Assembly (NCBI RefSeq): GCF_004341165.1
Contig: NZ_SLZR01000018.1
Coordinates: 1-60,143, forward strand
Reading direction: 5' to 3'
Origin: Reinekea marinisedimentorum
GTDB taxonomy: Bacteria > Pseudomonadota > Gammaproteobacteria > Pseudomonadales > Natronospirillaceae
Length of the DNA: 60,143 bases
Below the pieces are notes generated by a model. It had not been told where the DNA came from and did no database searches. It saw only the letters and a list, made by a program, of their open reading frames with translations. Position numbers and translations under genes: made by a program. Below, piece after piece: positions 5,255 to 58,202 of the stretch; within the stretch, counting starts at the first letter, position 1, and each line of letters opens with the position of its first letter.

Positions 5255-5345
5255 TATTGAAATTTTTTAAGGCAGGCACTAAAGTGACTGCCTTTTTGGC
5301 ATTATACGATTTAGTTAATTTAGTTAACCCTGAAAGGCGATTGAT

Positions 5346-6569
5346 ATGGCGAAGGCTACTTTTGAGCGTACTAAGCCCCATGTAAACGTGGGCACAATTG
5401 GTCACGTTGACCACGGTAAAACTACTCTGACTGCTGCGTTAACTCGTGTGTGTTCAGAGGTTTGGGGCGGCGAAGCGATCGACTTTGCTGGTATCGATAA
5501 TGCCCCTGAAGAGCGTGAGCGCGGTATTACTATTGCGACTTCACACGTAGAATACGATTCTCCGACTCGTCACTACGCACATGTTGACTGTCCTGGACAC
5601 GCCGACTATGTGAAAAACATGATTACTGGTGCTGCTCAGATGGACGGCGCTATTCTGGTTTGTGGTGCGACTGACGGCCCAATGCCTCAGACTCGTGAGC
5701 ACATCCTGCTGTCTGGTCAGGTAGGTGTTCCTTACATCGTAGTATTCCTGAACAAAGCTGATCTGCTGGCTGAAGACTGTGGTGGCGTTGATTCTGAAGA
5801 ATACGCTGAGATGCTTGAGCTGGTAGAGATGGAAATCCGTGATCTGCTGTCTCAGTATGACTTCCCAGGTGATGATGCTCCAATCATTGCAGGTTCTGCT
5901 CTGATGGCTCTGGAAGGTAAAGACGACAACGGTCTGGGTACTACTGCTGTTAAAGCCTTGGTTGAAGCTCTGGATTCTTACATCCCTGAGCCAGAGCGTG
6001 CGATTGATATGCCGTTCCTGATGCCAATCGAAGATGTATTCTCAATTTCTGGTCGTGGTACAGTTGTGACTGGTCGTGTTGAGCGCGGTATCGTTAATAC
6101 TGGTGACGAAGTTGAAATCGTTGGTATTAAAGAAACAACTAAGACTACCGTAACAGGTGTTGAAATGTTCCGTAAGCTGCTTGACGAAGGTCGTGCGGGT
6201 GAGAACATTGGTGCGCTGCTGCGTGGTACTAAGCGTGAAGAAGTTGAACGTGGTCAGGTACTGGCTAAGCCAGGCTCTATCACTCCTCACACTAAGTTCG
6301 AGTCTGAAGTTTACGTACTGAGCAAAGATGAAGGTGGTCGTCACACTCCATTCTTCAAAGGTTACCGTCCACAGTTCTACTTCCGTACAACTGACGTAAC
6401 GGGTGCTTGTGAGCTTCCAGAAGGCGTAGAAATGGTTATGCCAGGTGACAACATCAAGATGGTTGTTACTCTGATTGCTCCTATCGCTATGGATGAAGGT
6501 CTGCGTTTCGCGATCCGTGAAGGCGGCCGTACTGTTGGTGCAGGCGTTGTAGCTAAGATTATCGACTAA
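5346..6569 (+). CDS. tuf: Elongation factor Tu, tRNA-linked copy (long form)
   Basis: The GTPase that delivers aminoacyl-tRNA to the ribosome. It has 407 residues, with G1 [10 protein letters not shown]3 DCPGHADY, G4 NKAD and the beta-barrel domains complete. It carries about 10 extra residues just after G4 ([18 protein letters not shown]) compared with the str-operon copy at 22190. Codons are strongly biased to highly expressed forms (CGT, GGT, CTG), so this is probably the main EF-Tu gene. It is transcribed behind three tRNAs and ends at a clear terminator. The ATG start has AAAGGCG about 8 bp upstream. Confidence 0.97.
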
Positions 6570-6595
6570 TTCCTTTAGTTGAATATCTACATTGA

Positions 6596-6616
6596 GGGTG
6601 CTTCGGCACCCTTTTT
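6596..6616 (+). terminator. Terminator of the tRNA-tuf operon
   Basis: GGGTGC-TTCG-GCACCC hairpin followed by five T, 27 bp after the tuf stop codon. Confidence 0.92.
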
Positions 6617-6793
6617 GGTAGGTGCTGTTAATGCTTGGCGTGGCCAGGCGGTTATTTCTCTGAAAGTGCCTTCAAGTTAAAGTATTTTCTTAGAAAGGGT
6701 GGAAAATCTCATTGAATTTCAATAAGATGCGCATCCTCGAAAGCAGGCATTACTTTAGATTGCTATAGAATAGTCAAGAGTTCTGCTAAGTGC

Positions 6794-6822
6794 TTGTAAA
6801 GCACCGTTGGTTGGCGTAAAAT
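6794..6822 (+). promoter_or_regulatory. Promoter of tRNA-Trp-secE-nusG
   Basis: TTGTAA (6794-6799), 17-bp spacer, TAAAAT (6817-6822), then the GC-rich CCGCCGCCC, as at stable-RNA promoters. It lies 20 bp before tRNA-Trp. The roughly 180 bp between the tuf terminator and this site shows no other feature. Confidence 0.75.
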
Positions 6823-6842
6823 CCGCCGCCCAAATTAAACAT

Positions 6843-6918
6843 AGGCCAGTAGTTCAATTGGTAGAGCGTCGGTCTCCAAAACCGAAAGTTGGGGGTTCGA
6901 GTCCCTCCTGGCCTGCCA
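6843..6918 (+). tRNA. tRNA-Trp (CCA)
   Basis: Acceptor AGGCCAG pairs with CTGGCCT, the anticodon CCA is at 6876-6878, TTCGAGT is in the T-loop, and the CCA end is encoded. tRNA-Trp before secE is the usual gammaproteobacterial order. Confidence 0.97.
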
Positions 6919-6950
6919 CATTATTATCGACAGCACAGGTGTCTTGCTGA

Positions 6951-7319
6951 ATGAATGCACAGGTTAATTCCTCAAACAAAGCGTTGGACTTATTGAAGTG
7001 GTTTGTTGTCGTCGCGTTAGTTGTTGTAGCTATCGGCGGTAACTACTATTTTTCTGCAGAGTCTCTGATTTTGCGCGTTGTGGGTGTGTTGGTTTTGCTT
7101 GCCGCTGCTGTTGGTGTTGCCCTGACCACTGAAAAGGGTAAGACGGTTGCTCGTCTGCGCAAAGAAGCGTGGGTCGAGGTTCGTAAGGTTGTATGGCCTA
7201 CCCGTCAGGAAACAATTCAGACGACCGGTATTGTGGTTGTTTTTGTTGCAGTGGTCGCCTTAGTGCTTTGGCTGGTCGATATGCTTCTGGGCTGGGGCGT
7301 ATCTTTCATAATCGGTTAA
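6951..7319 (+). CDS. secE: Preprotein translocase subunit SecE
   Basis: An inner-membrane component of the SecYEG channel. It has 122 residues with three predicted membrane segments (about 13-33, 38-58, 92-117) as in the long E. coli-type SecE. The conserved cytoplasmic amphipathic helix, with the key stretch EVRKVVWPTRQET, precedes the last membrane segment. It lies 12 bp before nusG in the same operon. Confidence 0.95.
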   Translation: MNAQVNSSNKALDLLKWFVVVALVVVAIGGNYYFSAESLILRVVGVLVLLAAAVGVALTTEKGKTVARLRKEAWVEVRKVVWPTRQETIQTTGIVVVFVAVVALVLWLVDMLLGWGVSFIIG

Positions 7320-31483: not shown

Positions 31484-31598
31484 ACCTGCGGTGAAATCCG
31501 AATAATCCGTTAAAAAGACCATGCAGACATTAGCGTTTGCATGTTCCTTCCACATTTGGTCATTATGCTTACTGAAGGATGTTTCAGAAAGCAGGCTT

Positions 31599-33005
31599 AT
31601 GTTCATTTCTATTCGTACTAAATTATTTGCGTTGTTGATTCTGGCGAATGCACTGATGGTTGTGCTGCTGCTTGGTTTTAATGCGTTTACCTTTAACCGC
31701 AGCTTTTCCAGCTATATCGAGCAGCGCGAAGCCCGGCGTATGTCGGTGCTGATAGAGAACCTTGCGGATGTTTATGAAGATCGCGGCAGCTGGCATTGGT
31801 TGCGTAATGATCCGGCAACGGTGGCATCGATTGTTCGTGAAAGCCTGAACAACTTTGATTTTAGGGGACAGGATAAAAGCAACAGCAAAGGGGTGCGCAT
31901 CACCTACTTTGAGCAGTTGAGAATATCTGATCCGGACGGCCAGATTGTGTTTGGCCGCGCGCTCAATGAACGAAAGATTACCTGGCTGTCTATCAATAAC
32001 GATGACGGCAAGCTGATCGGCAAGCTCGGCGTTGAACTGAATAACCGGCTGGATGCGCAGGTGGATGAGCTGTTTATCAGTCGCCTCAAGCTGCAGCTGT
32101 ATCTGGTTGGGGTTGCGGCCTTCATTATTGCCGGCGCACTGGCGATTCCCTTCTCTGGTTGGCTGGTGAAGCCCATTCAGCGCATTACTCAGGCCATGCG
32201 TAAGATGAGTGAAGGGGATTTCTCTGTGTCTGTCGATGACGACCGTAAAGATGAGCTTGGCCGCCTGGCCGCCGATTTCAACCACATGGCAACCGTACTG
32301 CAGAAGGCGCAAAATGACCGGCAGCAGTGGGTGAGTGATATTGCCCATGAACTGCGCACGCCGGTGGCGGTGCTGCAGGGCGATATCGAAGCCGCGCAGG
32401 ATGGCATTCGCACCGTGGATGACCGCTGGCTGGCCAATATGTTTGCGCATTCGGAACGGCTTAACCGGCTGGTTAGCGATCTGCATCAGCTTTCGCAATC
32501 CGATGCCGGCACCCTGAGTTACCGCTTTGAAGAGCTGGACGTCAACAATCTGGCCAGCGAGGTGGTCGCGCAGTTCCGCACCAGCCTTGCCCAGCGCCAT
32601 ATCGAGGTAACATTCAAACCGGATGAAGAGCCAATGCTGGTGGATGGCGATGCTGAGCGCTTAGCCCAGCTGCTGACAAACCTGGCGCAGAACACCCTGC
32701 GTTATACGGATGGCAGTGCCGCGCAGCCCGGCAAATTGCAGGTTGAAATCAGCCGGACTGCCGAGACCATTCAGTTAATCTGGGAGGATTCTTCCCCCGG
32801 TGTCGCCGCCGAGCATATACCACGGCTGTTCGACCGCCTGTACCGGGTGGATGAATCGCGCAACCGCGAAACCGGAGGCTCGGGCCTTGGGCTTGCGATT
32901 GCGAAAAATATTGTTGAAGCCCATCAGGGGCACATTTCTGCTGCTCTGAGTAATTTAGGCGGACTGCGAATCTGTGTGCAGTTGCCACCGAAAAAGGAAA
33001 GTTAA
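31599..33005 (+). CDS. baeS: Sensor histidine kinase, BaeS-like
   Basis: 468 residues. Membrane segments are at about 8-30 and 165-190 with a periplasmic sensor loop between. A HAMP domain follows (KPIQRITQAMRKMSEGDF), then the H-box SDIAHELRTPVAVLQGDIE (His phosphorylated), N box QLLTNLAQNTLRYTDG, the BaeS-type G1 box EDSSPGV, and G2 GGSGLGLAIAKNIVEAHQG. Start ATG 31599 gives MFISIRTKLF. The gene ends 1 bp before its response regulator, the same order as baeS-baeR in E. coli, where the pair senses envelope stress. The stimulus here is unknown. Confidence 0.87.
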   Translation: MFISIRTKLFALLILANALMVVLLLGFNAFTFNRSFSSYIEQREARRMSVLIENLADVYEDRGSWHWLRNDPATVASIVRESLNNFDFRGQDKSNSKGVRITYFEQLRISDPDGQIVFGRALNERKITWLSINNDDGKLIGKLGVELNNRLDAQVDELFISRLKLQLYLVGVAAFIIAGALAIPFSGWLVKPIQRITQAMRKMSEGDFSVSVDDDRKDELGRLAADFNHMATVLQKAQNDRQQWVSDIAHELRTPVAVLQGDIEAAQDGIRTVDDRWLANMFAHSERLNRLVSDLHQLSQSDAGTLSYRFEELDVNNLASEVVAQFRTSLAQRHIEVTFKPDEEPMLVDGDAERLAQLLTNLAQNTLRYTDGSAAQPGKLQVEISRTAETIQLIWEDSSPGVAAEHIPRLFDRLYRVDESRNRETGGSGLGLAIAKNIVEAHQGHISAALSNLGGLRICVQLPPKKES

Positions 33006-33006
33006 C

Positions 33007-33693
33007 GTGAGTCATATTTTAATTGTTGAGGATGAAAGTCATCTGGCCGATCTTGAACGCGATTACCTGAAGCAGGCCGGCTTTGACGTCACAGTGATTA
33101 ACCGGGGCGATGAGGCAGCGCAATGGCTGCAGAAAAATGAGCCAGACCTGGTGGTGCTGGATTTAATGCTGCCGGGCAAGGATGGCCTCGATATCTGCCG
33201 CGATCTGCGTAAAAGCAGTGAGCTACCGGTCATCATGACCACTGCCAAGGTGGAAGAGGTCGATCGCCTGATCGGTCTGGAAATCGGTGCCGATGACTAC
33301 CTGTGTAAACCGTTCAGTCTGCGTGAGCTGGTGGCGCGCGTTAAGGCGGTACTGCGGCGCTACAGCAGCAGTGTCGAAGCCGAAAGCCAGCCTCAGTCGG
33401 GGCAGCTGGTTATTTCTGAAAACGATACTCGTGCCTGCTTTGGTAAAAGCTGCACTGAACTGACCATTGTAGAGGTGCGGCTGTTGATGTTGTTGCGCAA
33501 GCACCCTCGGCAAATATTTTCCCGCGATCAGATTATCGATGGTATCTACGATGACCGGCGCGTGGTTTCCGACAGAACCGTCGACAGCCACATTAAGAAG
33601 TTGCGTAAGAAACTGCAGGAAATTAACCCCGAGCACAATTACATTCAATCGGTGTATGGCGCTGGCTATCGTTACGATGCCGAAGAAATTTAA
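33007..33693 (+). CDS. baeR: Response regulator, BaeR-like (OmpR family)
   Basis: 228 residues. Receiver domain about 1-120: acidic pocket VEDE, phospho-acceptor Asp in VLDLMLPGKDG, Thr in MTTAKVEEVDRLIGLEIGADDY, and Lys in CKPF. Winged-helix DNA-binding domain about 130-226 (YDDRRVVSDRTVDSHIKKLRKKL). The start is GTG 33007 after AAGGAAAG. The close match to BaeR phrases and the four Spy-like genes just downstream suggest it controls them. Confidence 0.88.
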   Translation: MSHILIVEDESHLADLERDYLKQAGFDVTVINRGDEAAQWLQKNEPDLVVLDLMLPGKDGLDICRDLRKSSELPVIMTTAKVEEVDRLIGLEIGADDYLCKPFSLRELVARVKAVLRRYSSSVEAESQPQSGQLVISENDTRACFGKSCTELTIVEVRLLMLLRKHPRQIFSRDQIIDGIYDDRRVVSDRTVDSHIKKLRKKLQEINPEHNYIQSVYGAGYRYDAEEI

Positions 33694-33889: not shown

Positions 33890-34450
33890 ATGAACACATT
33901 AAAAAACAAATTCGTTGCCGGTGGTATTGTTGTTGTATTGAGCGCAACTGCAGCAGGTGCCTTCGCTAAAGGTGGCTGGGACAATTCTGAAAAAGCGGCT
34001 CAGCGTGGCACCAACCTGGATTACATCTTCACTGAATTATCGCTGAGCGAACAGCAACAGGCAGATGTGAACGACGTGCTGGAAGCTCATCGTGCGCAAA
34101 CCCGTGAACAACGCGATGCCATGCGCGAAGCGATGAGAAACGCTGAAGAAAAACCAAGCCGTGAAGATATGCAGGTGGCCCGTGAAGCGAACCGCAGCGC
34201 ACAGTTTCAGGCACTGACCGATGAGCTGAACACTGTCTTAGCTGCAGACGATGCAGCCGATCTGGTTGCCTACCTGGAAGCGCATCAGCCTGATCGCGGT
34301 GCTGACCATAAAGGTGGACGTGACGGTCGCGATGGTCGCATGGCCAAGGGTGAGCGTGGCGACAAAGATGGACGCTTTGGCAAGTACTACGATTCTGATG
34401 ACGACAGCTGGGAAGATGAGGAACATGACAGCGGCGACAACGATGCTTAA
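33890..34450 (+). CDS. Spy/CpxP-like periplasmic protein, charged type (A1)
   Basis: 186 residues. A signal peptide ends at about AGAFA, residues 22-26. The mature part has the line NLDYIFTELSLSEQQQADV, which resembles the LTxxQ motif of Spy/CpxP chaperones, then long charged helices (EAHRAQTREQRDAMREAM) and a second ALTDELNTVLAADDA segment. The C-terminal 50 residues are Gly/Asp/Lys-rich with an acidic end. GGAGAGAG precedes the ATG. It belongs with the paralogues at 34985, 35642 and 36246. A periplasmic chaperone or stress sensor role is inferred from the motif and the BaeSR-like neighbour. Confidence 0.75.
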   Translation: MNTLKNKFVAGGIVVVLSATAAGAFAKGGWDNSEKAAQRGTNLDYIFTELSLSEQQQADVNDVLEAHRAQTREQRDAMREAMRNAEEKPSREDMQVAREANRSAQFQALTDELNTVLAADDAADLVAYLEAHQPDRGADHKGGRDGRDGRMAKGERGDKDGRFGKYYDSDDDSWEDEEHDSGDNDA

Positions 34451-34532
34451 TGGTTTGAAGCCAAGCATTGTATGAAGGCTGGCCTGCACGCCAGCCGATG
34501 CAAAATATCCGCGCAGATTTTTCTGCCAACCG

Positions 34533-34556
34533 GCCACCCAATTAGGGTGGCTTTTT
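34533..34556 (+). terminator. Terminator after Spy-like gene A1
   Basis: GCCACCC-AATTA-GGGTGGC followed by five T. Confidence 0.92.
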
Positions 34557-34861
34557 CGTTTTTAGCCAAAGGTCATGCTTTTAAATAACAACTTTTGGCT
34601 CATCAGTTGTGCGCTTTTTTCCAGCACAATAGCCACAGTGATAGCTTTGCAATTCAATGGTGAAAGTGGGCTGGGTAATGTTGGTTACAGCCCGCCCGGA
34701 TAGCTGATTGAAGTTTGTACAGATCATGAACCCGGTAAGTTTAATGGTCGCAAGCCGCAGCAAACGCCCTTTGAATTGTTCTCCCTTTCACCACCGCACA
34801 GCGGTGGTTTTTTTATTGGGGGGGCAGTCACATCGAATGAGCAGCTCGATTTACAGGCCAC
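34557..34861 (+). other. Intergenic stretch ending in an orphan terminator
   Basis: About 300 bp without a convincing coding frame, between the A1 terminator and the first B gene. It contains a complete terminator (34791-34815: CCACCGC-ACA-GCGGTGG, then seven T) that ends no visible gene. A small RNA transcribed from within 34560-34790 would explain it; a decayed gene is the alternative. Confidence 0.5.
34791..34815 (+). terminator. Orphan Rho-independent terminator
   Basis: A perfect 7-bp stem CCACCGC/GCGGTGG with T7, not downstream of any recognised gene. Confidence 0.85.
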
Positions 34862-34984
34862 CTATACACAAGCCTGTTGCTTCCTCACATTTGCCTCATT
34901 TTTCTTACAAAGTGGTTTTACATAATGGTTGTCATTGAAGCAAAGCACAGCAATAAATTTTCAGAATTTAACAGGAGCAACACG

Positions 34985-35392
34985 ATGAAAAACATGAAAT
35001 CTAAATTAGCCGCCGCCGGATTAGCCTTGGTTATGTCGGCTTCTGCCGTCAGTTCTTTTGCTGGCACTAGCGATACGACTAGCCTGGAATACATCTACGG
35101 AGAACTGGGTCTGACCGCAGAGCAACAGCTTGCTGCAAGCGATGCAATCAGCGATCTGAAGCAAAACCAGACGTCCTGGGGTTCGCTGATCAGTGTAAAA
35201 CGTCACAGCGATAAGGCATCGACAGCACAGATGAAAACTATGACCCGCAGCTACCTGAATGCACAGGAAGCCGCACTGCAGGATAAGCTGGATGACGTCA
35301 TGAGCGACGATCAGGCAGAACAACTGGTTGCCTTCGTTGACATTAATATGCCTGCACCGGATTACTTCGCTTACCTGGATTCTGACGACTGA
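34985..35392 (+). CDS. Spy-like small periplasmic protein (B1)
   Basis: 135 residues. The signal peptide (MKNMKSKLAAAGLALVMSAS...) is cleaved after about SSFA, residue 26. The mature part begins near SLEYIYGELGLTAEQQLAA, the same motif as the A-type proteins, and continues in a helical region ending PAPDYFAYLDSDD. ATG 34985 follows AGGAG; upstream in-frame ATGs have no ribosome site. It is almost identical to its tandem copy at 35642. Family function is unknown beyond the Spy-like LTxxQ resemblance. Confidence 0.75.
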   Translation: MKNMKSKLAAAGLALVMSASAVSSFAGTSDTTSLEYIYGELGLTAEQQLAASDAISDLKQNQTSWGSLISVKRHSDKASTAQMKTMTRSYLNAQEAALQDKLDDVMSDDQAEQLVAFVDINMPAPDYFAYLDSDD

Positions 35393-35441
35393 TCCAAAGC
35401 TGAGCTTTAACGTTGTAATTTTTGAATCTCTTCTATTTATT

Positions 35442-35469
35442 TTAGCCACCCTTGCGGTGGCTTTTTTTT
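35442..35469 (+). terminator. Terminator after B1
   Basis: GCCACC-CTTGC-GGTGGC followed by eight T. Confidence 0.92.
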
Positions 35470-35641
35470 GCCGGACGAAAAGTTATGTGTTTAGTAAATA
35501 AGTATTGTCGTTAAGCATCTATACACAAGCCTACCGCTTTCTCACATTTGCCTCATTTTTCTTGCAAAGTGGTTCGACATAATGGCTTTCATTGAAGCAA
35601 AGCACAGAAATTTTTTTAAAGAATTTTACAGGAGTACCACC

Positions 35642-36049
35642 ATGAAAAATATGAAGACTAAATTAGCTGCAGCCGGATTAGCTCTGGTAATGTCAGCATC
35701 CGCCGTCAGCTCTTTTGCCGGTACAGACGATGCCAGTAGCCTGGATTACATTTACGGAGAACTGGGCCTGACCGCAGAGCAGCAGCTCGCTGCAAACGAT
35801 GCAATCAGCGATTTGAAGCAAAACCAGACGTCCTGGGGGTCACTGATCAGTGTAAAACGTCACAGCGATAAAGCGTCGACAGCCCAGATGCAAACTATGA
35901 CCCGCGCCTACCTGAACGCACAGGAAGCAGGACTGATGGATAAACTCGACGACGTCATGACCGATGGTCAGGCAGAGCAACTGGTTGCTTTCGTTGAAGT
36001 AAACATGCCGGCACCGGATTACTTCGCTTATTTGGATGCGGATGACTGA
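35642..36049 (+). CDS. Spy-like small periplasmic protein (B2)
   Basis: 135 residues, about 90% identical to B1, with the same signal peptide and the SLDYIYGELGLTAEQQLAA motif. ATG 35642 follows AGGAGTACCACC. Changes relative to B1 are mostly conservative (for example KTMTRSYL to QTMTRAYL), and the frame is intact in both copies, which suggests both are kept by selection. It has its own promoter region and terminator. Confidence 0.75.
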   Translation: MKNMKTKLAAAGLALVMSASAVSSFAGTDDASSLDYIYGELGLTAEQQLAANDAISDLKQNQTSWGSLISVKRHSDKASTAQMQTMTRAYLNAQEAGLMDKLDDVMTDGQAEQLVAFVEVNMPAPDYFAYLDADD

Positions 36050-36102
36050 TGTCCCAAGTTGAGTCGAAAGCAAACTTTTAGTGCCTTCCAGAATTTATCC
36101 TT

Positions 36103-36128
36103 TTAGCCACCCTCGCGGTGGCTTTTTT
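36103..36128 (+). terminator. Terminator after B2
   Basis: GCCACC-CTCGC-GGTGGC followed by six T. Confidence 0.92.
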
Positions 36129-36155
36129 GTGTTTGTCAGATTTTGGTGGCACAGC

Positions 36156-36173
36156 TTTCTTTTTTCTTCCTTA
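36156..36173 (+). promoter_or_regulatory. Candidate shared operator, second copy
   Basis: TTTCTTTTTTCTTCCTTA, one mismatch from 33783-33800, 73 bp before the start codon at 36246. Confidence 0.4.
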
Positions 36174-36245
36174 TTTCATGCATTTTTAGGCTGGATACTG
36201 GGAACCGTTGAAGGCATAAGCCTCGGAATCTTTTGGAGAAATACT

Positions 36246-36710
36246 ATGAGCACAATGAAGAAAAAAATTGCAGCCGGTGGTTTGGCATTGATTCTGGCAA
36301 CCGCTGCTGTAGGCGCCTTTGCCAAGGGTGGTCAGGAAAACGGCGACAAAGGCGAACGTCGTGGCAATGTCAACCTGGATTACATCTACACTGAGTTGGC
36401 ACTGAGCGAAGAGCAACAGGCCGATGTCAATGCCGTGCTGGAAGCGTTCCGTGATCAGACCCGCGAAGATATGAAAGCGGCCATGGAAGAATTCCGGGAT
36501 GCCGAAGAGCGTCCAAGCCGTGAAGAAATGGCTGAAATCCGTGAAGCCCACCGTGCCGAGCTGCTCGCCAGCCTGACGGATGAGCTGAACACCGTGTTAA
36601 CGGCAGATCAGGCGGAAGACCTGGTGACCTACATCGACGCCCACAGCCAGGGCGGCCCACGCGGCCCGCAGGGTGACCGCGCTAAAAACAGCTCTGATGA
36701 CGAGAGCTGA
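36246..36710 (+). CDS. Spy/CpxP-like periplasmic protein, charged type (A2)
   Basis: 154 residues. The signal peptide ends near VGAFA (about residue 24). The motif NLDYIYTELALSEEQQADV is followed by a helical charged region (FRDQTREDMKAAMEEF), then LTDELNTVLTADQAEDLV, as in A1. The tail is shorter than in A1. ATG 36246 follows TTGGAGAAA; a long upstream in-frame extension lacks a ribosome site and runs through the B2 terminator. It is the last gene of the four-member cluster. Confidence 0.75.
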   Translation: MSTMKKKIAAGGLALILATAAVGAFAKGGQENGDKGERRGNVNLDYIYTELALSEEQQADVNAVLEAFRDQTREDMKAAMEEFRDAEERPSREEMAEIREAHRAELLASLTDELNTVLTADQAEDLVTYIDAHSQGGPRGPQGDRAKNSSDDES

Positions 36711-39342: not shown

Positions 39343-39360
39343 TCGCTTGCAAGCAAAGAA

Positions 39361-39387
39361 AAAAAACCGGGGCTTCCCGGTTTTTTT
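39361..39387. terminator. Bidirectional terminator
   Basis: AACCGGG-GCTT-CCCGGTT with an A-run before and a T-run after, between two convergent genes. Confidence 0.92.
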
Positions 39388-39404: not shown

Positions 39405-41636
39405 TCAGTCCGCTTCCATGGGGTTGCCCGGCATCGGCCGTACCGGAACCGGTTGCCATTTCTGCAGCCGGTGACTGTGCAGTAGCAGTGCCAGGCTGAT
39501 GGCCACAGCCAGAACGCCGGCGGGTACCGGGCTGATATAGCCGAGTGCGGCCAGTGGAATGGCGATGCTGTTGTAGCTAACAGAGATCAGCACGTTTCTG
39601 CGAATGACCCTGTGCGTCCTGCGGGCGATCTGAATGGCCTCATAAACCAGGCTGATATCCTGACGCATCAGGTTGATTCCGCCTCGGCCAATGGCGGCAT
39701 TTTCTTTGCGGCCCAGCACGATGCTGGCACCGGCAGACTCCAGCAGTTCATCGCTGTCGCGCAGACCATTGCCGATAAAGACGTTCTTGCTGTCGGCACT
39801 GACCGCATCATCGCTGAGGTTGTTTTCGACATTACGGATGCCCAATGAACTGGCAATGGCCTTGCTGGCTCCGGTTAGTCCGCTCTTAAACAGCGAAAAC
39901 TCAAAGCCCTGCTGACGCAGCGTATCAATGGTTTCGTGGGCCATATCGCGAATGCGGTCTTTCAGGTCGAAGCGCGCAATAATGCTGCCGTTGGCGACGA
40001 CCCACAGCCGGCCCTGATCCGGCTCGGAATTGCGAAGGTGAACAGGCTTGATGGGAATGTTTTGATCAATCAGCAGATCATCGCTGCCGATAATAAAGCT
40101 GACGCTGTTGCGTCTGGCGAGCGTACCCATTGCGCCCTGATTCACCCAATTGAAGTCGAGCTTTATCGGTTCCACCTTGTTCAGATAGGCCAGCGCCGCT
40201 TCCGCAATGGGGTGCCTGCTCTGTTGCATCACCTTTTTGGCTGCCGCCTGCCACTGCTCGTTTTTAGTCCACTGCTCCAGCTTAACTACCTGATGCTGGC
40301 CGGTGGTCAGTGTGCCGGAATTGCTGAACACCAGCTTGTCAGCTTTGGCTAACCCCTGCAGCTGGCGAAGGTTACGGAACAGCACCCCACGCTGAACGCC
40401 AAGGTTACTGGCAATCACAAAGGCGTAGGGGGCGGCAATGCTCAAAGCGCACGGGCAGGCGATCAGCAGCACCGCCATCACCGCTGTCAGTGCCGTCTGT
40501 ACATCTGCCACATACCCGTGGTAGCCATAGCTGGCTGCTGCGGCAACGGTGACCAGCAGCATGTAGATCAGCGATGTCTTATCGAATTGCTTCTGTGTTT
40601 TCGGGTGGTGAGCCTGAGCGTCTATCAGGTAGCGGGTGGTCTGGTGCAACTGAAAATCTTCGGCGCGCTTGGTCACCCGAATGCGCAGCCCATCGTTCAG
40701 GTTTCGGCTGCCGGCCAGTACATAGTCGCTGTGCTGTTTTGGCGTGGCACCCTGCAGGCCGGTGAGCAGGCTTTCATCGACACTGCTGACCCCGGCAACA
40801 ACATAGCCGTCGGCCGCAATCAGCTCGCCGGCGTGTGCCTCAATCTCGTCACCGGGGTTCAACCGGTTCACGGCGATGGTGATCAGTTTATCTTCCAGCC
40901 ACTTATGAGCCACCGGCACGGTCAGGTTCAGTAATGGCTCCAGCTTACTGGCCGCGTGATACATCGCCTGATGCTTGGTCCATTTGCTGAACAGTGCCAG
41001 GGTGATCATCAGCGTGTTGATGTGGAAGTAGAGTTCATCGCTGCCGGTAACCAGCCACAGGTACAGGCTGTAGAAGTAAGCCAGGCTGGTGGCCAGTGCG
41101 GTGGTGAGGTCGATATTGGCGTGGCCGGTGGTCACCGACCAGAGTGCGCCGCGGTAAAGCCGGGCACCCAGATAAAACTGGCAGATAGTGGCGAGCAGGC
41201 ACAGTGTTTCAACAGGTATCTGGATATCGACAGTCAGCCAGTTCAGCACCAGAGGCAGCCAGCACAGCACCGAGAGCACAGCCGAAAGCACGAGTTTTCT
41301 GCTGCGGCGTTGCTGAATCGAACTCTTCTTGTTGAAGCTGTCTTCAGTGGCCACCGGTGCGCCAATTTTGTTCAGTGCTGCTTCAATCTCTTTTTGCGTC
41401 AGTACGGCCGCGTCGTAGTGCAGATGCAGCTGCGATGTCGCCAGGTTGACATAGGCACTGGCCGTGCCGGCAAGGCCAAGCATGGCTTTTTCAATACGGG
41501 CAGCACTGGCTGAGCAATCGACCAGCTCCAGGCGCAGGGTGGCCTGTTGATAAGTGCTTTTTTTCGCTTCTGTGGCGCCACCGGCACCAGTAGGTTCACT
41601 GATGGCTGCCAGTCCTTCTGAATTCGTGTGAGTCAT
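39405..41636 (-). CDS. Degenerate P1B-type (CcoI/FixI-like) ATPase, probable pseudoenzyme
   Basis: 743 residues from ATG 41636 (a TTG 11 codons earlier is less likely). An HMA-like N-terminal domain lacks the CxxC pair (LVDCSASAARIE). About eight membrane segments are present, with the metal site ACPCALS intact (Cys394-Pro-Cys396). Every catalytic motif is altered. DKTGT is SNSGT, so the phosphorylated Asp is Ser438 (codon 40323-40325). TGE is TGL (Leu294). The TGD motif reads SGL. GDGxND is GNGLRD (Asn623). The nucleotide-domain HP (SRHPIAEA) remains. The frame is intact over 2.2 kb. ATP-driven transport is not expected. A role as metal-binding scaffold, regulator or passive path is inference. 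No cco genes are adjacent. Confidence 0.85.
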   Translation of the reverse strand: MTHTNSEGLAAISEPTGAGGATEAKKSTYQQATLRLELVDCSASAARIEKAMLGLAGTASAYVNLATSQLHLHYDAAVLTQKEIEAALNKIGAPVATEDSFNKKSSIQQRRSRKLVLSAVLSVLCWLPLVLNWLTVDIQIPVETLCLLATICQFYLGARLYRGALWSVTTGHANIDLTTALATSLAYFYSLYLWLVTGSDELYFHINTLMITLALFSKWTKHQAMYHAASKLEPLLNLTVPVAHKWLEDKLITIAVNRLNPGDEIEAHAGELIAADGYVVAGVSSVDESLLTGLQGATPKQHSDYVLAGSRNLNDGLRIRVTKRAEDFQLHQTTRYLIDAQAHHPKTQKQFDKTSLIYMLLVTVAAAASYGYHGYVADVQTALTAVMAVLLIACPCALSIAAPYAFVIASNLGVQRGVLFRNLRQLQGLAKADKLVFSNSGTLTTGQHQVVKLEQWTKNEQWQAAAKKVMQQSRHPIAEAALAYLNKVEPIKLDFNWVNQGAMGTLARRNSVSFIIGSDDLLIDQNIPIKPVHLRNSEPDQGRLWVVANGSIIARFDLKDRIRDMAHETIDTLRQQGFEFSLFKSGLTGASKAIASSLGIRNVENNLSDDAVSADSKNVFIGNGLRDSDELLESAGASIVLGRKENAAIGRGGINLMRQDISLVYEAIQIARRTHRVIRRNVLISVSYNSIAIPLAALGYISPVPAGVLAVAISLALLLHSHRLQKWQPVPVRPMPGNPMEAD

Positions 41637-41834
41637 TTTACTGCCTGTGGCTCTGACGATTTGCTTCAACTACGAGGGCTGTGATGGGGCATTCTGCCGT
41701 TTAGAGCCGGTTTAGAGTCAATACCCCTTTGGGATGTGCGGCAATTTTAACAGGACGAAAGGTCAAGAAAGTGTAAGCTCGCCAACATGGTCAGTTGCTA
41801 CTAGGCTATAGCAAAAGGGCATCGGGAATCGTTA

Positions 41835-42044
41835 ATGGCCCCAACTGCAAAATCGTTTAAAGCCTATGGTCGCGCCTACGCCGGGTATGTCATGGTGAAA
41901 TGGCTGACGATCAGCATCAGCTTTTTTCTGCTGTCGCGCTTCGAAGGTTTTACTCTGCTGTGGATGCTCTGGTGGCCCATGTTTGGCGCGCCGGTGCTGA
42001 TCAGTATTAACGTCTTTCTTCTGCGCCGAAAACGCCTGTTGTAA
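41835..42044 (+). CDS. Small membrane protein, unknown
   Basis: 69 residues with two predicted membrane segments (about 19-36 and 40-62) and a basic C-terminus (RRKRLL). The start ATG follows TCGGGAATCGTTA, a moderate ribosome site. It is divergent from the ATPase pseudoenzyme and shares its upstream region. No family was recognised. Confidence 0.55.
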   Translation: MAPTAKSFKAYGRAYAGYVMVKWLTISISFFLLSRFEGFTLLWMLWWPMFGAPVLISINVFLLRRKRLL

Positions 42045-45376: not shown

Positions 45377-46201
45377 GTGATGAAACTTAAACAAATGTTG
45401 GCCGCAGGGTTGCTGGGGTTGTCGGCACTGGCCGGTGCCTCGCCGTTTATGGAACTGGTGGATACGCACATTCACTACAGTCACGATGCCTGGGAACGTA
45501 CACCGCCGCCGGAGGCCATTCGCTTGCTGCGCCTGGCCGGTTTACAGAAGGCCTTTGTTTCCAGCTCCAGCGATCAGGGCACGCAAATGCTCTACGCCGA
45601 AGCGCCGGATCTGATCGTGCCGGTACTGCGCCCGTACCGCAAGCGCGGTGAAATCAGCACCTGGTTCCGCGATGAAACGGTCATCCCCATGCTCGAAGAC
45701 CTGCTGGAAAAGAACACCTACGCTGGCATCGGCGAGTTTCACATCTATGGTGATGACGCCAACATGCCGGTCATTCGCCGGGTGGTGGAGCTGGCGCAGC
45801 AATACCACTGCTTCCTGCACTTGCATGGCGATGCTGAAGCGGTCGAAAACGTCTTTAAGCAAGACCCGAACGCCACCATCCTGTGGGCGCACTCCGGTTT
45901 TGAAGGCCCGGCGGTGGTATCACAAATGCTGGCACGCTTCCCGAACCTGAAGGCCGATCTCGCCTTCCGTAACGACCATGCCTTTCAAGGCAAGGTGGAT
46001 GCCCAGTGGCGCGAGCTGTTCCTGAAATACCCGGATCGGATCATGGTCGGCACCGATACTTTCGCACCGGAGCGCTGGCACTACATTATGGATCACGCCG
46101 ACTGGACGCGTGAATGGCTGAAGGATTTACCCGAATCTGTGGCGCAGAAGATCGGCTATCAGAACGGCTTGGATTTAGCCGCGTGGGCGCTGAATAAATG
46201 A
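45377..46201 (+). CDS. Secreted amidohydrolase-family protein
   Basis: 274 residues with a signal peptide (about 1-21, ending ALAGAS). TIM-barrel amidohydrolase ligands appear in order: VDTHIHYS (HxH), GEFHIYG, FLHLHGDA, WAHSGFEG and the Asp in MVGTDTFAP. These would bind one or two metals in the periplasm. It is the first of three genes joined by 4-bp ATGA overlaps with a YtkA-like protein and a di-haem peroxidase, so the three probably work together. The substrate is unknown. Confidence 0.8.
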   Translation: MMKLKQMLAAGLLGLSALAGASPFMELVDTHIHYSHDAWERTPPPEAIRLLRLAGLQKAFVSSSSDQGTQMLYAEAPDLIVPVLRPYRKRGEISTWFRDETVIPMLEDLLEKNTYAGIGEFHIYGDDANMPVIRRVVELAQQYHCFLHLHGDAEAVENVFKQDPNATILWAHSGFEGPAVVSQMLARFPNLKADLAFRNDHAFQGKVDAQWRELFLKYPDRIMVGTDTFAPERWHYIMDHADWTREWLKDLPESVAQKIGYQNGLDLAAWALNK

Positions 46202-46596
46202 CGATCAAGCGCTTACTGCTGCCACTGTTCAGCCTGACCCTGGCCGGTCAGGCCTTGGCCGACTGCCAGCTCAGTGGCGATTACAGCGGCCATGCGCAGA
46301 GCCTGAGTGTCGGCTTTTCAACCCTGCCTGCGCCGGTGGCCATCGGCGAAGCCTTCTCCCTGATGCTGACCGCCTGCCATGACGACGGCACGCCCTTTAC
46401 CGGCCAGATTACCGCCTCGGCGGTAATGCCCGCGCATCAGCACGGCATGAACTATCAGCCCACGGTGCAGCGCCTTGCGCCGGGGCACTACCGGCTGGAT
46501 GGTTATCTGTTCCATATGCCGGGCGACTGGCAGTTTCAGTTCCGCATGGCATCCGGCGGCCGCTATGAAACGGTCACCGTTGATTACCCGCAATGA
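46198..46596 (+). CDS. Small periplasmic YtkA-like protein with MPxHxHGM motif
   Basis: 132 residues with a signal peptide (about 1-21, QALA). The mature part is an all-beta, FixH/YtkA-like domain with VMPAHQHGMNYQP and GYLFHMPGDWQFQF. The His/Met-rich MPAHQHGM loop resembles metal-binding, possibly copper, sites. It overlaps both neighbours by ATGA. The function is inferred only from motif and context. Confidence 0.7.
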   Translation: MTIKRLLLPLFSLTLAGQALADCQLSGDYSGHAQSLSVGFSTLPAPVAIGEAFSLMLTACHDDGTPFTGQITASAVMPAHQHGMNYQPTVQRLAPGHYRLDGYLFHMPGDWQFQFRMASGGRYETVTVDYPQ

Positions 46597-47756
46597 TGCG
46601 CCTGCTGATCAGCCTGTTGTTCACTTGTGGCCTGGCCGCTGCCAGCGACTGGAGCGCCACCGAGCGGGCCTTTGTTCAATCGCTCGGGCCCTGGCCGCAA
46701 GCCGCAGTGGCCGATGCCAGCAACCGCTTATCCGGTGACGTTCGCGCCATCGAGCTGGGCCGGCAGCTGTTTTTCGACCGCCGGCTCTCTGCTAATAACG
46801 CCCTGGCCTGCGCAGACTGTCACCGGCCGGATGCACAGTTTGCCGATGGCATTGCGCTCAACCGCGGCTTTGGCGCTCTTGCGCGTCATACGCCGGCGTT
46901 GCTTAACCTCAGCCAGCGCTACTGGTTTGGCTGGGGGGGCGAAAACGACAACCTGTGGGCGCAGTCGATGCGGCCCATCCTCACCCCGGAAGAAATGAAT
47001 GCCAGCCTGACGCAGGTGTCAGAAACCCTGCGCCAGGACGATGCCTTCGCCTGCCGCTTTCAGGCCACGACCGGGCTTGCGCTGCAAACGCTGGATGAAC
47101 AGACGCAGCTGGTTTGGATAGGCAAGCTGTTGGCCGCCTATCAGGAGACCATCGTCACCGGGCGAACCGCCTTTGATACCTTTCGTGATCAGCTGCTTCA
47201 GGGCCAGCCGCTAACGGCGTTGAATGCCTCTGAACAGGCCGGTCTGAAGCTGTTCATCGGCGAAGGCCGCTGCGTGTTCTGTCATTCCGGTGCCGGTTTT
47301 AGCAATGGCGAGTTCGGCGATATCGGCGTCAGCTTCTTTACCGCCAGCGGTGTCGATAAGGGCCGCTATGCCGGTATTCAGTCGGTGACCCGCTCGCCTT
47401 TCAACCGGCTGGGCGCGTTCAGTGATTCCATCGCCAGTGGCAGCCGTACGCAGCATATTCAGCTGCTGCACCGTAACTGGGGCGAGTTCCGCGTCCCGTC
47501 ATTGCGTAATGTGGCCGATACCGCGCCCTACATGCACAACGGCAGCGTTGAAACGCTGGCCGAGGTCGTCGATTTTTATTCAGAGCTGGATGAAGAACGG
47601 CTGCATACCGACGGCGAGAAAATACTGCGGCCACTGCATCTTTCTGCACCGGAAAAACAAAATCTGATCGCCTTTCTGCAAAGTCTGTCGGCACCGGTCA
47701 GCGCGGCCACTGACCAGCCTGACCTGTTTCAGAACTGCCCACAGGCCGCCGGTTGA
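46593..47756 (+). CDS. Di-haem cytochrome c peroxidase / MauG family protein
   Basis: 387 residues with a signal peptide (about 1-17). Two c-type haem sites are present, CADCH (about residues 74-78) and CVFCH (about 227-231), with the family phrases LGRQLFFDRRLSANN and RVPSLRNVADTAPYMHNGS. It either reduces H2O2 or, like MauG/MbnH, oxidises a partner protein. Coupling to the small MPAHQHGM protein makes that protein a candidate partner. It is the last gene of the three-gene operon. Confidence 0.88.
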   Translation: MMRLLISLLFTCGLAAASDWSATERAFVQSLGPWPQAAVADASNRLSGDVRAIELGRQLFFDRRLSANNALACADCHRPDAQFADGIALNRGFGALARHTPALLNLSQRYWFGWGGENDNLWAQSMRPILTPEEMNASLTQVSETLRQDDAFACRFQATTGLALQTLDEQTQLVWIGKLLAAYQETIVTGRTAFDTFRDQLLQGQPLTALNASEQAGLKLFIGEGRCVFCHSGAGFSNGEFGDIGVSFFTASGVDKGRYAGIQSVTRSPFNRLGAFSDSIASGSRTQHIQLLHRNWGEFRVPSLRNVADTAPYMHNGSVETLAEVVDFYSELDEERLHTDGEKILRPLHLSAPEKQNLIAFLQSLSAPVSAATDQPDLFQNCPQAAG

Positions 47757-56350: not shown

Positions 56351-57019
56351 GTGGTAGGTAATTTTCAAGACGATGACCGTGAAGAAGCAATGCGTGTTCT
56401 GTTCGAGTTATATAAAGACGATAGCGAAGGACGAGATGGTGTTGACGCACATATGGAAATTGATGGGATGGTTGTACCTTTTGAACTTAAGACAACTTCA
56501 ACGGGGGCAGTGACCACAGTTAGGGATTTTGGTCCTGATCACATTCAAAAATGGAAAGACAAACATTGGCTCATTGGCTTTTTTATTAAAGGCCGAGAAT
56601 TTTACCATTATGGCTCTCCCGACATGATGCAAGACTGGATTAAAAGCAAAGAGCAATATATTAAACCTGATTTCATGTTGGCAGATTTAGCATCTAGTAA
56701 GCTTTCGATTGAGGATCTGTATCAGGTAGTGGAAGAAAAACCACTCTATACATATGAGGATGCAAAGGGACTACAAAAAAAGCAGTACAAGAAGAGCAAA
56801 TATATTGAGCTGCAGGATGTCCCTGGAGGCTATAGCCCAGAGAGGATGTTAGAAATTATTAAAGATAGAGCCAAATATCTTGTACAGAGAGGTAGTACTC
56901 TAAATAACCCACACATTCCTTTTACATACTTTAATGGGTGGGTTGAAATTACAGAAAATCATGCTGAAACATTACGGAGATTCGTCAGAGCATACTACGC
57001 TCAAATTCATCCTAACTGA
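56351..57019 (+). CDS. Type II restriction endonuclease (PD-(D/E)XK type)
   Basis: 222 residues. A nuclease core is suggested by GRDGVDAHMEIDG...VPFELKTTS (about residues 28-52: Asp, then E-x-K). The start is GTG 56351, 5 bp after AGGAG. It converges with, and overlaps by 8 bp, the cytosine methyltransferase gene, which is the main reason for the call. Codon use is AT-rich compared with the efflux genes, which points to horizontal transfer. The recognition site cannot be told. Confidence 0.75.
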   Translation: MVGNFQDDDREEAMRVLFELYKDDSEGRDGVDAHMEIDGMVVPFELKTTSTGAVTTVRDFGPDHIQKWKDKHWLIGFFIKGREFYHYGSPDMMQDWIKSKEQYIKPDFMLADLASSKLSIEDLYQVVEEKPLYTYEDAKGLQKKQYKKSKYIELQDVPGGYSPERMLEIIKDRAKYLVQRGSTLNNPHIPFTYFNGWVEITENHAETLRRFVRAYYAQIHPN

Positions 57020-58202
57020 GCGCAATAGCAACATTTTTTGCAACCTGATAGGCAACAGGCGGGGCAACAGAGTTTCCGATTTGCCCCAAAGCCTGATAAA
57101 CGGCCCCTGAGAGCTTCCAGCTTTCTGGAAATCCTTGCAATAAGCCAACATCCGAAACACTTAATCTAAAATGATCGTGCTTAGCGGGAAACCCTGAAGC
57201 TTTTTCTCTGTCAGCTTGAACGCCATTTGGCCATATCAGCATATCGCCCCAAGCCTTTTGGCCTGCAGAGCTATTTAATACAGAAGTTGTATTTCTCTTA
57301 CCTGTAAAAGCAGAGCGAATTGTTGGGGCTAAGCTATCAAAGCCGATATCTGGTAGTCCAAGTGCTTCCCGAACGCCCATAGTTTTTGGCTTTTCGGTAG
57401 CGAATAAGTCCTGAACATTTCTGTTTTTAGGGTTATCTAATGAGCTTTTGTCATGGGTCGGCTCTGGAATAGTAAATTTGGAAAAAGCTTTCTTTGTTTT
57501 AAAGCCAACAAAGAAAACTCGCCTTCTAATTTGCGGTACGCCATAGTCAGCTGCATGCATTTCAAATCTTACTATGTGGTAGTCGTTGAGCTGCTCCAAG
57601 ATATACTTCTGGACAAACCCTTCGAACTTTGGGTTCATTAGCCCTAATACATTTTCTGCAACAAACGCTTTTGGCTTAATGGTGTTTACCGCTCTATTGA
57701 ACTCGCCCCACATATTTCTTTCGTCATCTAAACCCCTTTGCTCTCCAGCGATGGAAAAGGGCTGGCAAGGAGGCCCGCCTTGGATTAGGTCAACTTTCCC
57801 CTTATATGCTTTCCAGTCGATAAGGGTTACATCTCCCTCGTCTGGGCCGCCATAAACCGCCCAACTAGGTCTATTGGCTTTGAGAGTGTCTTTGCAAATC
57901 GGTATCAGTTCGTAAGATGCAACATGCGTATAGCCCGCACGATCAAATCCGAGATCAAGACCTCCTCCTCCTGCAAATAGGCTTAGCGCTCTAATCCCGT
58001 TGGTTTCCAGTTGGGGCATTAGATCGTTTGGGTCTAATTTTGGGGTGTTAACTTCGTGAATAGCGTCATGTAGCCCCTGCTCTGCAGCGAGCTTAGCGAG
58101 TCGAGCCTCTTGCGAAATTCGTCTATATTCGGCTCTTTTTTCGTCAGTAATATCATATTCTTTTCTAGCTGAATTCTTGTATACGGACTGTTTTGCTGGC
58201 AC
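57012..58202 (-). CDS. DNA (cytosine-5) methyltransferase
   Basis: 396 residues. The C5-methyltransferase motifs in order: I LSLFAGGGGLDLGF, IV GGPPCQPFS (catalytic Cys), VI AENVLGL, VIII QIRRRVFFVG, and X GNSVAPPVAYQVA; the target-recognition region is about 240-340. An N-terminal charged extension of about 70 residues precedes motif I. The start is GTG 58202. It protects DNA from the adjacent endonuclease; the arrangement is convergent. Base composition is AT-rich like its partner. Confidence 0.92.
   Translation of the reverse strand: MPAKQSVYKNSARKEYDITDEKRAEYRRISQEARLAKLAAEQGLHDAIHEVNTPKLDPNDLMPQLETNGIRALSLFAGGGGLDLGFDRAGYTHVASYELIPICKDTLKANRPSWAVYGGPDEGDVTLIDWKAYKGKVDLIQGGPPCQPFSIAGEQRGLDDERNMWGEFNRAVNTIKPKAFVAENVLGLMNPKFEGFVQKYILEQLNDYHIVRFEMHAADYGVPQIRRRVFFVGFKTKKAFSKFTIPEPTHDKSSLDNPKNRNVQDLFATEKPKTMGVREALGLPDIGFDSLAPTIRSAFTGKRNTTSVLNSSAGQKAWGDMLIWPNGVQADREKASGFPAKHDHFRLSVSDVGLLQGFPESWKLSGAVYQALGQIGNSVAPPVAYQVAKNVAIALS

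Follow-up and report, generated by a model that had tools for sequence, protein, structure and literature searches.

The 60,143-nucleotide stretch of Reinekea marinisedimentorum DNA analysed here (the window) encodes what may be read as a maintained, transport-dead paralogue of CopA, preceded by a copA-type promoter and possibly acting as a Cu(I) sink, sensor or brake; the probability of this reading as a whole is put at about 45%. The parts of the reading, which differ in strength, are taken up below with the evidence for each.

Gene and domains

The gene is a P1B-type coding sequence of 743 codons (39405..41636; this and the other features of the gene described below lie on the reverse strand), identified from its open reading frame, its Pfam domains and its place in the CopA clade. 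It starts with ATG at 41636, stops at 39405 and contains no internal stop codon, so that the coordinates, length and intact frame given in the preliminary description, which was made from the sequence alone, are correct; an alternative TTG start at 41669, 33 bases upstream, would extend it to 754 codons. Directly on its 3′ side is a terminator-like stem of 12 pairs with a T run (39360..39387), from a scan that performed at chance level (2 terminator-like sites found versus 3.1 expected in shuffled sequences).

The protein, referred to here as the pseudo-ATPase, matches the Pfam families E1-E2_ATPase (7.1e-35), HMA (3.8e-07) and Hydrolase (2.6e-06), all above their cut-offs, and passes TIGR01494 (108.7, cut-off 62.3), but it falls below the curated heavy-metal and copper pump cut-offs of TIGR01525 (307 versus 346.25) and TIGR01511 (272.9 versus 397), both of which are passed by the CopA of the same genome (575.8 and 552.8, respectively). 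Its domains, its similarity to other proteins and its fold model indicate that it is, by descent, a P-type ATPase of the P1B group. The HMA domain occupies residues 32-95 (41352..41543) according to the translation, Pfam and the alignment, and its CxxC motif has become C41-A-S-S44, while the CopA proteins of Reinekea have two CxxC motifs each. The N-terminal CxxC was previously thought to be gone; the second cysteine has indeed been replaced by Ser44, but the domain itself is present and Cys41 is kept (CxxS).

Loss of the catalytic residues

The catalytic motifs were recounted in an alignment of 28 P1B proteins, comprising the pseudo-ATPase and 27 others. The phosphorylation motif DKTGT, present in all 27 of the others, is SNSGT in the pseudo-ATPase (residues 438-442; 40311..40325). 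The actuator motif TGE is TGL (residues 292-294; 40755..40763), at a place where every other protein has xGE (TGE in 24, SGE in two, NGE in one), and the magnesium-site motif GDGIND is GNGLRD (residues 622-627; 39756..39773), against GDGxND in 27 of 27. These three replacements had been read correctly in the preliminary description, together with an intact CPC motif, and all are borne out by the translation. Its fourth replacement, TGD to SGL, holds in that the aspartate is lost, but the ungapped alignment places KSG (584-586) and not SGL (585-587) at this position, within a KSGL segment (residues 584-587; 39876..39887) that corresponds to TGDx or SGDx in the other pumps. The list of lost residues was also incomplete: between residues 612 and 613 (39798..39803), an in-frame deletion of eight residues, accompanied by loss of the P-domain lysine, removes most of a P-domain helix, which spans residues 650-663 in the model of CopA and residues 609-612 in that of the pseudo-ATPase.

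In a broader comparison with 32 other P1B proteins from the same genome and from relatives, the pseudo-ATPase keeps 60 and loses 33 of the 93 columns that are at least 90% conserved. The losses fall on eight of ten side chains of the ATPase cycle and on 25 of the 83 other conserved columns (Fisher p 0.003), where the ten were chosen by the author as cycle residues after the alignment had been inspected. None of the residues by which an active P-type ATPase is recognised, namely the aspartate of DKTGT, the glutamate of TGE, the aspartate of TGD and the aspartate and asparagine of GDGxND, is present. With the residues for phosphorylation, magnesium binding and dephosphorylation lost, ATP-driven copper pumping should be impossible, and the pseudo-ATPase is almost certainly not an active pump. 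The sequence thus sustains the earlier view of the protein as a pseudoenzyme in which the residues of the P-type cycle are gone.

Copper path and predicted structure

The transmembrane CPC motif (residues 394-396; 40449..40457), found in all 27 of the other P1B proteins, is intact in translation and alignment, and so is Tyr688-Asn689 of the transmembrane copper site (39570..39575). The metal-site segment MxxSS of M6, by contrast with these, aligns with AVAIS (residues 710-714; 39495..39509): the methionine, which is present in 27 of 27 others, is replaced by Ala710, the first serine is lost, and the second (Ser714) is kept. Of the P1B-1 copper-site motifs, CPC and YN are therefore present and MxxSS retains its last serine only.

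In LpCopA, the copper entrance and chaperone platform are made up of Met148, Glu205 and Asp337 (PMC7558416). Two of these three copper-entry residues are lost in the pseudo-ATPase, where the equivalents of Met148 and Glu205, M and E in all 27 of the other proteins, are Ile175 and Lys221. LpCopA Glu189 maps to His205 and Met717 to Ala710; Asp337, Tyr688, Asn689, Ser721 and the two cysteines of CPC are unchanged. The statement that the CPC site and all membrane segments remain accordingly needs qualification: CPC is intact, but the M6 methionine and the equivalents of Met148 and Glu205 have been lost, which makes copper binding less sure. As far as the sequence can be interpreted, the energy cycle is dead and the copper path is changed in part.

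AlphaFold2 modelling with 27 homologues gave a pLDDT of 83.8 and a pTM of 0.81 for the pseudo-ATPase, compared with 85.2 and 0.77 for the CopA of the same genome, and all helices are predicted. The top Foldseek matches of the model are copper P1B-ATPases; its TMt is 0.81 to 7r0g and 0.54 to 4bbj. The E1-like conformation was considered as a peculiarity of the pseudo-ATPase and rejected, since the model of CopA is alike (0.88 to 7r0g, 0.55 to 4bbj). The pseudo-ATPase is predicted still to fold as a membrane P1B-ATPase, in a model that was guided by CopA relatives and is not proof of the fold.

Origin

The genome, of 4.23 Mb in 62 contigs and 99.95% complete, contains two other P1B genes, both encoding DKTGT: CopA (L002/L057) and a pump (L003) that is taken to be CcoI-like from its sequence features. 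Among the matches listed, the pseudo-ATPase is 34-37% identical to the CopA proteins of Reinekea, which are 57-65% identical to the CopA of this genome; over the whole length, the identity between the latter and the pseudo-ATPase is about 34% (35.1% or 34.0%). In trees the pseudo-ATPase lies inside the CopA clade of Saccharospirillaceae on a branch of 1.87 or 2.22 substitutions per site (two trees), other terminal branches measuring 0.02 to 1.2. Its position within the clade is poorly supported (0.41 and 43), but placements outside the clade are rejected by the AU test (0.0065 and 0.0004).

On this phylogenetic evidence the pseudo-ATPase is a paralogue of CopA and not of CcoI. The connection with CcoI drawn in the preliminary description does not hold, given the grouping with CopA of Saccharospirillaceae, and no cco genes were recognised among the window ORFs of 36-46 kb. 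The active CcoI that was to be sought elsewhere in the genome has a candidate in the separate CcoI-like pump with DKTGT (L003), which also speaks against a CcoI origin.

A direct recent copy of the copA gene of this genome was rejected (AU 0.028 for the sister placement). Placements that the AU test does not reject are that of sister to all Reinekea CopA proteins (0.516) and two deeper ones (0.63 and 0.67). The codon model fits the Reinekea-sister topology better by 7 log units (-18784.5 versus -18791.6), a preference that is a hint only.

Distribution

The pseudo-ATPase has been seen in one genome only. No orthologue was found among the matches listed from 95 other relatives (6 congeners included), in 21 other genomes of the family or in 389 other genomes of the order, sets that overlap with one another and with the contigs mentioned below. 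In the order search, which scored the best two candidates per genome, nine of 390 genomes including its own have a match at E ≤1e-85, and the other eight matches are 32-37% identical. A protein scan of genome contigs by exact 8-residue words, with its own genome excluded, which shows close relatives only, also revealed no orthologue. The search for orthologues sharing the SNSGT change, which the preliminary description had proposed, thus found none in the relatives, the family, the order and the contig scan.

In the congener G002 (L050), the flanking ORFs for a dehydrogenase, a Nudix protein and a potassium channel (matched to the window ORFs by similarity; names given from reading the sequence, and in the case of Nudix also from Pfam) are in conserved order, and the ATPase is replaced at 5259-7275 by two overlapping ORFs with weak matches to cache domains, below the Pfam cut-offs. 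No match to the pseudo-ATPase from G002 is among those listed, so that CopA seems to be absent from G002 as well.

Upstream operator and candidate regulators

Upstream of the pseudo-ATPase gene, pattern and matrix searches located a putative MerR-type promoter and operator, TTGACT-19 bp-CAGAAT with a right half-site CTCTAAA (41691..41721). Sites like TTGACC-TTAGAG...CTCTAAA with equal spacing precede copA in five congeners, two of which are near-identical; the right half-site of the window operator is as in these Reinekea copA promoters, and its left half-site is degraded. When a weight matrix was built from the five congener copA operators, excluding data from its own genome, the site came top among 120,226 window positions, scoring 22.4 bits versus 13.4 for the next, and the site of the genome's own copA scored 24.3. 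A genome-wide pattern search allowing at most two mismatches found two sites, the window operator and that of copA, and none with a reversed control, a result that shows rarity rather than an independent find, as both sites were already known when the pattern was defined. The pseudo-ATPase probably belongs to a copA-type regulon.

Elsewhere in the family, the CopA genes of other genera (L009-L012, L029) have boxes like CTTCCAG...CTGGAAGG, presumably of the CueR type, with matrix scores of 16.7-24.3. The Reinekea copA operators (L052, L055, L057, L058, L059, L060) are of the type CTTAGAG...CTCTAAG, unlike CTTCCAG...CTGGAAGG. The Reinekea form of the right half-site is a hint that either the duplication or the acquisition of the promoter took place in the Reinekea line. 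A sigma-70 scan with spacers of 16-18 bp found no promoter at the pseudo-ATPase; the 19-bp spacer falls outside that range. The CueR cut-off is passed by none of the genome's MerR proteins. Five MerR_1 matches were seen, and the sole metal-type MerR recognised is ZntR-like (L110) and present in seven of seven Reinekea genomes.

Possible role

A tentative account of the pseudo-ATPase is that an old CopA paralogue in Reinekea lost the residues for phosphorylation, magnesium binding and dephosphorylation and that, with a copA-type promoter, it is probably co-expressed with CopA as metal levels rise. As a static membrane protein without turnover, it might then hold Cu(I), or contact a copper chaperone or CopA, and so serve as a sink, sensor or brake instead of a pump. 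The simplest reading is that of such a static participant in the response to copper stress, a membrane Cu(I) sink or sensor or a modulator of CopA or its chaperone; it is ranked above decay with a luckily open frame and above a passive carrier. That its job is one of these, either Cu(I) sink or sensor or modulator of CopA, is conceivable at somewhat below even odds. The more specific designation as a pseudo-CopA within the copper regulon, which as a copper receptor or brake without pumping activity would hold or sense Cu(I) in the inner membrane or set the activity of CopA, is slightly more tentative.

One narrower alternative is that the pseudo-ATPase is a partner of the working CopA, whose activity it would set by competing for the chaperone or by forming mixed complexes. 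The operator type shared with copA and the retention of the HMA and soluble domains would suit such a partner, but the entry and chaperone platform (PMC7558416) is altered at two of its three residues, and an arrangement of this kind is rather unlikely.

Selection or decay

Identity to CopA is 0.46-0.51 at first, 0.54-0.60 at second and 0.30-0.38 at third codon positions; the second positions are conserved and the third are near saturation. Relaxation was tested with a codon model of two classes in which the branch of the pseudo-ATPase carries an exponent K (own script, limited iterations). K was 0.39 and 0.43 for two topologies, for which full neutrality (K=0) was rejected with 2dlnL of 63.7 and 86.2, and K=1 with 74.4 and 77.4. 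Among the controls, K was 1.04 for the genome's own CopA and 1.04 for L010, but 0.76 for L009 with 2dlnL of 7.0, which shows the test to be slightly liberal. A one-class codon model also rejected an omega of 1 (2dlnL 33.9), but it is uninformative because the branch of the pseudo-ATPase reached the branch-length bound and is inseparable from other branches.

The alternative to be weighed is a relic in decay, that is, a copA duplicate no longer needed, the frame of which is open by chance. The rapid evolution of the branch (1.87 and 2.22 substitutions per site) is in keeping with decay, as are the degradation of one operator half-site, the occurrence in a single genome and wear that extends beyond the catalytic columns to structural ones: where eight CopA proteins are invariant, 18 glycines are kept and 11 lost, and seven prolines are kept and nine lost. 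Raw regional counts of invariant columns kept, 12/15 in the N-domain and 16/36 in M5-M6, are given no weight. Against decay stands, besides the rejection of K=0, the state of the frame. Simulated neutral decay to the observed degree of loss, by substitutions without indels, introduced about 12 stop codons on average and left none of 6000 sequences free of stops, in agreement with the earlier argument that random decay would bring stops; an earlier set of 900 runs had minima of 2, 0 and 4 stops for its three starting genes and so reached zero at least once. The proportion of frames still open is 6% after 100 unconstrained substitutions and about 1% after 150, while the whole branch of the pseudo-ATPase corresponds to 5.2-6.0 neutral substitutions per codon, which limits a late neutral phase to a few per cent of its duration at most. 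At 0.179 per codon, the codon usage of the gene is within the range of its neighbours, and GC3 is also like theirs.

Decay of an unneeded duplicate is accordingly unlikely, and a little more so than the partnership with CopA. The picture is one of constraint that has weakened but persists, from which the catalytic sites have been freed, and the pseudo-ATPase is very probably a maintained protein. The preliminary description had favoured a maintained pseudoenzyme, now the most likely case in view of the rejection of neutrality, the neighbour-like codon usage and the copA-type operator upstream; the opposite outcome that it had envisaged, of normal motifs in relatives together with neutral evolution of this copy, is not what was found, since the CopA paralogues are normal but the pseudo-ATPase is not neutral.

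Other explanations

P-type ATPases are gated by their phosphorylation cycle, and with this cycle lost it is very improbable that the pseudo-ATPase lets Cu(I) through passively, as a carrier or a leak, even though CPC, Tyr688, Asn689 and Ser714 are kept and every helix is predicted; the entry residues, the equivalent of LpCopA Glu189 (His205) and the M6 methionine are also altered. An error of sequencing or assembly is hardly credible, and so is an active ATPase with altered chemistry, for although some rare DKTGT variants have been ascribed to sequencing errors (PMC3896382), here the nucleophile, the lysine, the magnesium site and TGE are changed together, and read errors cannot be the source of a protein with full-length identity of only some 34% to CopA and normal codon usage.

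Comparison with known systems

Pseudoenzymes are well known in other protein families, and the yeast proteins Snf3 and Rgt2 are transport-dead transporter paralogues that act as receptors. Like these two, the pseudo-ATPase would be a relative of a transporter that does not itself transport and has been retained for something else, but they belong to another superfamily, and its own task is a proposal. In domain order, predicted fold, CPC, YN and copA-type promoter it is like CopA (L002/L057 of the same genome; AfCopA, 7r0g; LpCopA, 3rfu and 4bbj), which differs in possessing DKTGT, TGE, TGD, GDGxND, the P-domain lysine and helix, the M6 methionine, the entry methionine and glutamate, a full CxxC and two HMA domains rather than one. 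With the CcoI/FixI-type pump of its own genome (L003) it shares the P1B architecture, but identity is 24%, L003 is in another clade, and the pseudo-ATPase has no N-terminal motif of the CFHC type.

A 2014 survey (PMC3896382) reports DKTGT in 99.77% of the P-type ATPases identified and, in 22 sequences, a single point change within this motif. These variants are like the pseudo-ATPase in having an altered phosphorylation motif; in the latter, three of the five DKTGT residues and other catalytic motifs have changed. PMC7858053 was considered as a precedent and rejected, as it argues for an active P4-ATPase domain. Within the accessible excerpts of open-licence literature, no described case of an inactive, degenerate or pseudoenzyme P-type ATPase was recognised, nor was one found with so many catalytic losses. 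If it is made and functional, the pseudo-ATPase would be a natural experiment that splits the copper-binding and folding parts of CopA from the ATP cycle, and would caution against counting each CopA-like match as an exporter.

Other features of the window

Divergent from the pseudo-ATPase is an ORF of 69 codons (41835-42044, forward strand), hydrophobic to the eye and without a Pfam match. A run of small secreted-looking ORFs (33890-36710), which comes after two ORFs at 31521-33693, includes two with LTXXQ/Metal_resist (Spy/CpxP-like) matches, one of them above the cut-off. At 45377-47756, ORFs for an amidohydrolase, a YtkA-like protein and a MauG-like di-haem peroxidase follow in a row with overlapping ends. 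The segment 56001-60000 has two ORFs without a Pfam match, a lower GC content (0.42-0.47) and an ORF for a C5 cytosine methylase (57012-58202) whose codon usage is atypical (-0.261 per codon); the segment is possibly foreign DNA.
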